This document shows positions 2,308 through 2,925 of a DNA stretch of 64,000 nucleotides, one piece after another (position 1 is the stretch's first letter; the number at the start of each line of letters is the position of its first letter). Origin of the DNA: Anaerolineae bacterium (GTDB taxonomy: Bacteria; Chloroflexota; Anaerolineae; DRVO01). Location: contig JABLXR010000011.1 in the NCBI GenBank assembly GCA_013178015.1, positions 1 through 64,000 of the forward strand, given 5' to 3'. Position numbers and translations under genes: made by a program. The notes below the pieces were generated by a model. The model saw only the letters and a program-made list of their open reading frames with translations, was not told the origin of the DNA and ran no database searches.

Positions 2308-2925
2308 ATGCGCTTTCCGGACCCCTCACGAGGAGTCCGCGCCCCCAGGCGCGGGCGTGCCGCCCATCGAGAGGGGCTCGCGCGTGGGCGCGCGAACTCC
2401 TCATTGGGGCGGGGATTGGACGGCAGGATGCGGGTCCTTCGGGAGCGCCTCCCGCGCCGGCGGCACCTGACCATGCGCTTTCCGGACCCCTCACGAGGAG
2501 TCCGCGCCCCCAGGCGCGGGCGTGCCGCCTGTCGGGAGGGGCTCGCGCGTGGGCGCGCGAACTCCTCATTGGGGCGGGGATTGGACGGCAGGATGCGCGT
2601 CCTTCGGGAGGCGCCTCCCCCGCCGGCGGCACCTGGCATGCGCTTTTCGGACCCCTCACGAGGAGTCCGCGCCCCCAGGCGCGGACGTGCCGCCTATCAA
2701 GAGGAGCACGCGCGTGGGCGCGCGAACTCCTCATTGGGGCGGGGATTGGACGGCAGGATGCGGGTCCTTCGGGAAGCGCCTCCCCCGCCGGCGGCACCTG
2801 GCATGCGCTTTCCGGACCCCTCACGAGGAGTCCGCGCCCCCAGGCGCGGGCGTGCCGCCTATCAAGAGGAGCACGCGCGTGGGCGCGCGAACTCCTGATT
2901 GGGGCAGGGGTTGGGCGGCAAGAGA
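2308..2925. repeat. Tandem array of four 165-bp repeats with conserved hairpins
   Basis: The word ATGCGCTTTCCGGACCCCTC (one T for C change in copy 3) recurs at 2308, 2473, 2638 and 2803, giving an exact 165-bp period. The fourth copy is truncated or diverged after about 2915. Copies differ at a handful of positions. Each contains an imperfect GGACcCCTC/GAGGaGTCC dyad, a GCGCC-CCCA-GGCGC hairpin and a CGCGCG-TGGG-CGCGCG hairpin; the two loops CCCA and TGGG are complementary. Each also has TCC-TTCG-GGA, a UUCG-tetraloop-like hairpin, and palindromic CCGCCGGCGG (altered in copy 1). Because 165 is a multiple of 3 and the DNA is GC-rich, long open frames run through it on both strands, but none resembles a known protein. 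I treat it as non-coding. Confidence 0.85.

Follow-up and report, generated by a model that had tools for sequence, protein, structure and literature searches.

The four 165-bp tandem repeats upstream of pyrG in the stretch of Anaerolineae DNA analysed here (the window, 64,000 nucleotides) are very probably an ordered cluster of REPINs, belonging to a REP family with a tag other than GTAG and spread in the manner of elements associated with RAYTs (REP-associated tyrosine transposases). The family, tagged GAGGAG, is a variant of the known REP/REPIN repeats. Each unit of the array is an inverted pair of one short hairpin; some 190 copies of that hairpin are dispersed through the genome of the window (G000; 4.57 Mb, a draft of 97 contigs that is 95% complete); its stem varies with compensation among relatives under a shared tag; in those relatives it is associated with a single clade of RAYT genes; and the array is absent from the same locus in a genome of the same genus.

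Architecture of the array

Tandem Repeats Finder places the array at 2297-2920 (period 165, 3.8 copies, 94% matches), and a repeat search of the window gives unit starts at 2307, 2472, 2637 and 2802, each spaced 165 nt (Table 1). An initial annotation of this DNA had reported four tandem 165-bp repeats with both stems kept throughout, and this stands, the fourth unit being partial: GCGCCCCCAGGCGC occurs at 2339, 2504, 2669 and 2834 and CGCGCGTGGGCGCGCG at 2379, 2544, 2709 and 2874, with no other sites in the window. When both strands are read, each unit resolves into one 26-nt element present twice in opposite orientations with the tags outward, GAGGAG-TCCGCGCC-CCCA-GGCGCGG(A/G) on the plus strand and GAGGAG-TTCGCGCG-CCCA-CGCGCG(AG/TG) on the minus strand, which gives the array the orientation pattern +-+-+-+-. 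The element, with its 8-bp stem and 4-nt loop, has the form of a REP palindrome (20-40, up to 65 nt), folds as DNA at -11.6 kcal/mol (z -4.9), and accounts for nine full-motif matches in the window against 0.03 expected.

Table 1. Features of the array and its neighbourhood (window coordinates)
Feature	Position	Strand	Description
Upstream gene	1..2121	- (by reading)	codon-usage model call; no family-search identity
Tandem cluster of four very probable REPINs	2307..2923	.	165-bp units; unit 4 partial, stops after ~122 bp
REP hairpin, unit 1	2330..2355	+	head GAGGAG, stem TCCGCGCC/GGCGCGGG, loop CCCA
Inverted REP hairpin, unit 1	2377..2402	-	head GAGGAG, stem TTCGCGCG/CGCGCGAG, loop CCCA
CCTTCGGG UUCG hairpin	2436..2443 (unit 1), again 2601, 2766	+	array spacer, outside REP; unit 4 without it
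REP hairpin, unit 2	2495..2520	+	motif match
Inverted REP hairpin, unit 2	2542..2567	-	motif match
REP hairpin, unit 3	2660..2685	+	motif match and DNA fold of hairpin
Inverted REP hairpin, unit 3	2707..2732	-	motif match
REP hairpin, unit 4	2825..2850	+	motif match
Inverted REP hairpin, unit 4	2872..2897	-	head decayed to CAGGAG
pyrG, CTP synthase by reading of sequence	3063..4703	+	downstream of array; proteins 87% (G001) and 85% (G002) identical

Because a unit holds one element in both orientations, its loops, CCCA and TGGG, are indeed complementary, as had been noted, but automatically so, the second hairpin being the reverse complement of the first. The GAGGAGT/ACTCCTC pairing likewise stems from the inverted copies, and it is complete in three units rather than four: GAGGAGT is present in all of them, whereas unit 4 reads ACTCCTG in place of ACTCCTC. 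The UUCG hairpin is real in the first three units and missing from the fourth.

We rejected the idea that the repeat, 165 bp or 55 codons long, encodes protein, since its multiple open frames arise merely from GC-rich sequence; an 830-aa ORF running through the array is an artefact, pyrG starting after the array. Short tandem repeats of 14 bp and 28 bp (ATAGGGGATAGGTT / CCTATAACCTGTTC) lie at 43469-43612 of the window, and GGTTACAGGGTACAGGGGTTAGGTTATAGGGGATAGGG, at ~2141-2178 immediately ahead of the array, resembles them.

Copies across the genome

Allowing two mismatches at most, a search of G000 finds 83 + 107 copies of the motif (~190), and the reversed pattern finds 0. Among the matches listed, 101 copies (the exact matches together with the decayed copy of this array) fall into 54 clusters, of which 30 are single copies, 14 pairs and 10 larger groups. 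Elsewhere in the genome the copies form regular direct series (spacing 66, 102, 105 and 109 nt) as well as inverted or alternating patterns (+-, +-+-+ and others), and the starts of inverted pairs are 42-63 nt apart. Many copies have no intact partner nearby, and some of the single ones have a degenerate inverted partner close by. Genes called with a simple codon-usage model leave 62 of 73 sampled copies outside ORFs, whereas 67% of random positions from those loci are inside them; seven of the 11 copies inside ORFs belong to this array, within an artefactual upstream extension of the pyrG frame. The family thus has the high, mainly extragenic copy number of REP elements, together with the inverted pairs, alternating orientation and tandem clusters of REPINs and BIMEs.

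The pyrG locus

A genome of the same genus (G001) and one of the same family (G002) both keep pyrG and its leader (window ~2980-3020), and the array is absent upstream of pyrG in each; beyond the leader their sequence resembles, by eye, the same upstream gene. Since pyrG and leader are kept there without it, the array would most simply be a lineage-specific insertion that expanded upstream of the leader.

The leader itself (window 2975-3030; L163, L164) is conserved in the three genomes as a TATCAT box followed by GGGCGGGCCGG.A.GCCAACCCC.GGC..GCC, and in the window TTATTCTTT comes after this conserved block. It looks like a terminator-type hairpin near a transcript starting GGGC, and recalls the way Bacillus attenuates pyrG through reiterative transcription.

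The position upstream of pyrG, and the fact that both strands of the array are more stably folded than shuffled sequence (z -2.3 and -3.4), could be taken to favour a structured non-coding RNA or a pyrG leader RNA with kissing hairpin loops, as the initial annotation had proposed. This reading is extremely improbable: the kissing loops are a by-product of inversion and were rejected on that ground, copies of the motif are scattered over many contigs and both strands, often lacking an intact partner, no Rfam family matches in the window, the pyrG loci of the same genus and family lack the array yet keep their separate conserved leader, and REP transposase genes of relatives have these hairpins on their flanks (see below). 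The array thus shows neither a match to a known RNA family nor a conserved locus. More generally, apparent kissing loops between adjacent repeats can be merely two inverted copies of one element.

A host-recruited function (termination, mRNA 3'-end protection, or binding of a nucleoid protein or gyrase) might instead maintain the array, its mobility being only historical; this is compatible with a REPIN origin. The strong hairpins between genes would suit such a role, and PMC2817692 and PMC3733652 report REPs/BIMEs elsewhere as protein binding sites and hypothesise effects on termination and mRNA stability. The spacer is also slightly more variable among the tandem copies than the hairpins (10 of 68 columns against 3 of 54), a difference that is not significant (Fisher p 0.14), and hairpin conservation was accordingly dropped as a sign of selection. 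We consider this account unlikely, as the same genus has no array at this position and the tandem copies are so alike that recent duplication explains their conservation.

Relatives and stem covariation

We scanned 396 genomes of the class (inferred to be Anaerolineae), with a loose pattern first and then with GAGGAGN{3,4}GCRYNCYCNNRYGC, and found 21 with at least 10 copies of the latter, reversed controls giving 0-1. Among these rich genomes the class-consensus copies number 228 (G277), 142 (G000), 118 (G199), 91 (G004), 53 (G116) and 51 (G096); G001 and G002 have none or one. The relatives share the GAGGAG head and a C-Y-C-N loop, and their stems differ with compensation.

Covariation was measured on 65 distinct hairpins, collected with a pattern that makes no pairing demand at three inner and three outer positions. 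Pairing is kept in 82% of cells, and cells changed on both sides number 105 against 44 in shuffles, with none of 500 shuffles as high; stem covariation is 0.433 against 0.196, a value reached by 0 of 500 shuffles, and sliding the partner strand abolishes the signal. The inner stem pairs alternate between A-T and G-C, C-G and T-A, and G-C and C-G. As the tag and the loop CYC are preset by the pattern in this set, their invariance there is no evidence; that they persist follows from the number of dispersed copies relative to the reversed control and from the hairpins next to RAYT genes, hairpins picked out solely by their head and pairing, with the loops CCCA, CCCT, CCCC, CCCG, CTCC or CTCA. With other genomic copies and compensated stem changes across genomes both in hand, the earlier view of a folded DNA element rather than random GC repeats is upheld.

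In G022 (loci L064, L068, L070 and L072), a search tolerating two mismatches gives 155 matches, while the class consensus has just five exact ones; the head, stem or loop must differ in most copies of this genome, and one GCGGAG head was seen. No RAYT of the clade described below was found in that genome.

One clade of RAYTs beside the hairpins

Y1 transposase genes (PF01797) were found in 15 genomes, and one in G277 (L127/L133) and one in G253 (L113/L134) have GAGGAG hairpins directly on both sides. The two proteins match NCBIfam REP_Tyr_transpos at E 4.6e-36 and 6.9e-36 (123.9 and 123.3 bits, with a cut-off of 80), carry the motifs PDHLH and YIHRNP (HUH motif and tyrosine region) and are 64% identical to each other; against the PDB, the G277 protein matches the TnpA_REP structure 4er8 (E 1.6e-8).

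A profile search of the class with these two RAYTs gave six close members at E < 1e-80, then a gap, the next lying at 2e-46. GAGGAG hairpins flank five of the six close members. No such flanking is seen at 24 more distant RAYT-type loci, where two isolated chance hairpins were far off or unlike the family, or at another 20, with repeat-rich genomes among them. A scan of named genomes gave seven RAYT loci, all seven flanked; three of these add to the members found in the class genomes, so that flanking holds for 8 of 9 members of one RAYT lineage and for 0 of the 44 RAYT-type loci outside it. On a tree built from 23 RAYTs, the flanked genes form one side of a branch and require a single label change, none of 500 shuffles being as low (support 75/85). 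In the relatives, then, a cognate RAYT is flanked by the same REPs, and because these are REP transposase genes the arrangement points to recognition of the hairpin as single-stranded DNA.

The exception, G264 (L137), branches with the flanked clade and has no GAGGAG hairpin beside the gene. Another repeat, GCGTTAGAGAACGCC...GCCCCT, lies on either side of its RAYT (L137 1370-1500 and 2040-2200), which suggests a switch of REP family.

The residues that contact the tag in E. coli are W94, Q95, E100, H101 and R104 (PMC6006769). They were considered as an explanation of the new tag and rejected: the residue aligned with R104 is Y/F in the flanked RAYTs, but the same is often true of unflanked ones, which leaves it without explanatory value on its own.

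The missing RAYT of the host genome

In G000 the RAYT model NF047646 gave no match at E <= 10, and the profile of the flanked clade gave no candidate. The single Y1 gene (PF01797) of this draft is of the IS200/IS605 type; it was rejected as the cognate enzyme, having a different repeat alongside and no GAGGAG motif beside it. That gene (L031 1067-1350 and 1890-2010; G000:C21 ~22150-23100) lies among three copies of a ~110-130 bp repeat (GCCGGCGAAGGCCGGC, GCGGGTTTACCCCGTG) that has 18 matches genome-wide; the layout is again like that of a REPtron, here with an IS200-type gene.

The presence of an IS200/IS605-type transposase where no RAYT was found would fit a MITE or another short palindrome, spread by a different transposase (e.g., DDE or IS200/IS605) and merely REP-like. 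We regard this as very unlikely, given that the one such gene in G000 has other repeats at its sides and that in relatives the same hairpins adjoin RAYT genes of one clade. Failure to detect a RAYT of the flanked clade is common to 17 of the 21 repeat-rich genomes of the class. In G000 the gene may lie unassembled between arrays, because several contigs (C12, C18, C36, C38, C51 and C62) end less than 200 bp from a motif copy; it may have been lost, leaving copies that are now immobile; or it may act from elsewhere.

Proposed mechanism and significance

As a RAYT-spread REPIN family, the elements would move as follows. A REP would fold into a hairpin when its strand is single-stranded, for instance on the lagging-strand template, and a dimeric HUH tyrosine transposase of the RAYT/TnpA_REP type would recognise the hairpin, the tag and possibly the loop. 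The enzyme would nick beside the foot and copy or move the inverted pair, that is, the REPIN, to a new intergenic site. At pyrG, a 165-bp unit composed of the REPIN and local flank would later have multiplied fourfold in tandem. The copies in G000 would have been spread by a RAYT that is now lost, unassembled or acting in trans. We infer the single-stranded substrate, the RAYT-driven movement, the tandem-duplication step and the origin of the G000 copies.

On balance we lean towards a broader statement, that a lineage of REP transposases in the Anaerolineae uses a GAGGAG tag, rather than GTAG, together with a C-Y-C-N loop, that tag and loop are fixed while the stem is compensated across families, and that the elements can persist or multiply, to ~190 copies here, where no cognate RAYT is detectable. 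Our literature search found nothing that pairs Anaerolineae with REP elements, no GAGGAG tag in REP papers and no prior description of this pairing of tag and RAYT in Chloroflexota. The REP/RAYT system of Chloroflexota would thereby include a lineage with its own tag. It offers a natural test of how domesticated transposases read their targets, setting GAGGAG against GTAG and a conserved loop against a variable but always paired stem, and a large REP population with no transposase detected is relevant to the question of whether a resident RAYT is needed at all.

Comparison with known REP systems

The closest likeness is to the REPINs of Pseudomonas fluorescens SBW25 (PMC3116915), which are also short palindromes with a conserved 5' tag, arranged in inverted pairs, intergenic and in high copy number, which also form tandem clusters of near-identical REPINs including flanks, and which are linked to a RAYT, a link seen here in relatives. 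They differ in their tag (GTAG/GTGG against GAGGAG), in their host, here a member of the Chloroflexota, and in that no RAYT was detected in G000; inverted REP starts are 42-63 nt apart here, compared with 71 bp between the 16-mers of SBW25 GI (PMC3116915). As in the BIMEs of E. coli, REPs alternate in mosaic arrays, and the relatives' RAYT is homologous to the E. coli-type TnpA_REP structure (PDB 4er8); unlike E. coli REPs, which have a bulged stem and GTAG (PMC8266576), the elements have perfect short stems. In this they resemble Group 3 / subclass 2.5 REPs (PMC8266576, PMC6006769), in which the tag is immediately followed by a short, perfect stem and a small loop, although the tags described for those are GT[AG]G.

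The canonical GT[AG]G tag is absent, and its place as conserved foot tag is taken by GAGGAG. Tags other than GTAG are on record for the atypical REPtrons of TnpAY1 subclass 2.6 and class 3, where they occur beside RAYT-like genes with dispersed copies (PMC6006769). Both are reported with weaker secondary structure, in contrast to the strong hairpins found here, and class 3 has a CnGA foot rather than GAGGAG (PMC6006769). GTAG repeats in Chloroflexi are reported in PMC3733652. The GAGGAG family matches REPINs and BIMEs, as described in PMC3116915, PMC2817692, PMC6006769 and PMC8266576, in how it is built, how many copies it has and where outside genes they lie, in its tandem clusters of near-identical REPINs, and in its tie to a RAYT in relatives.
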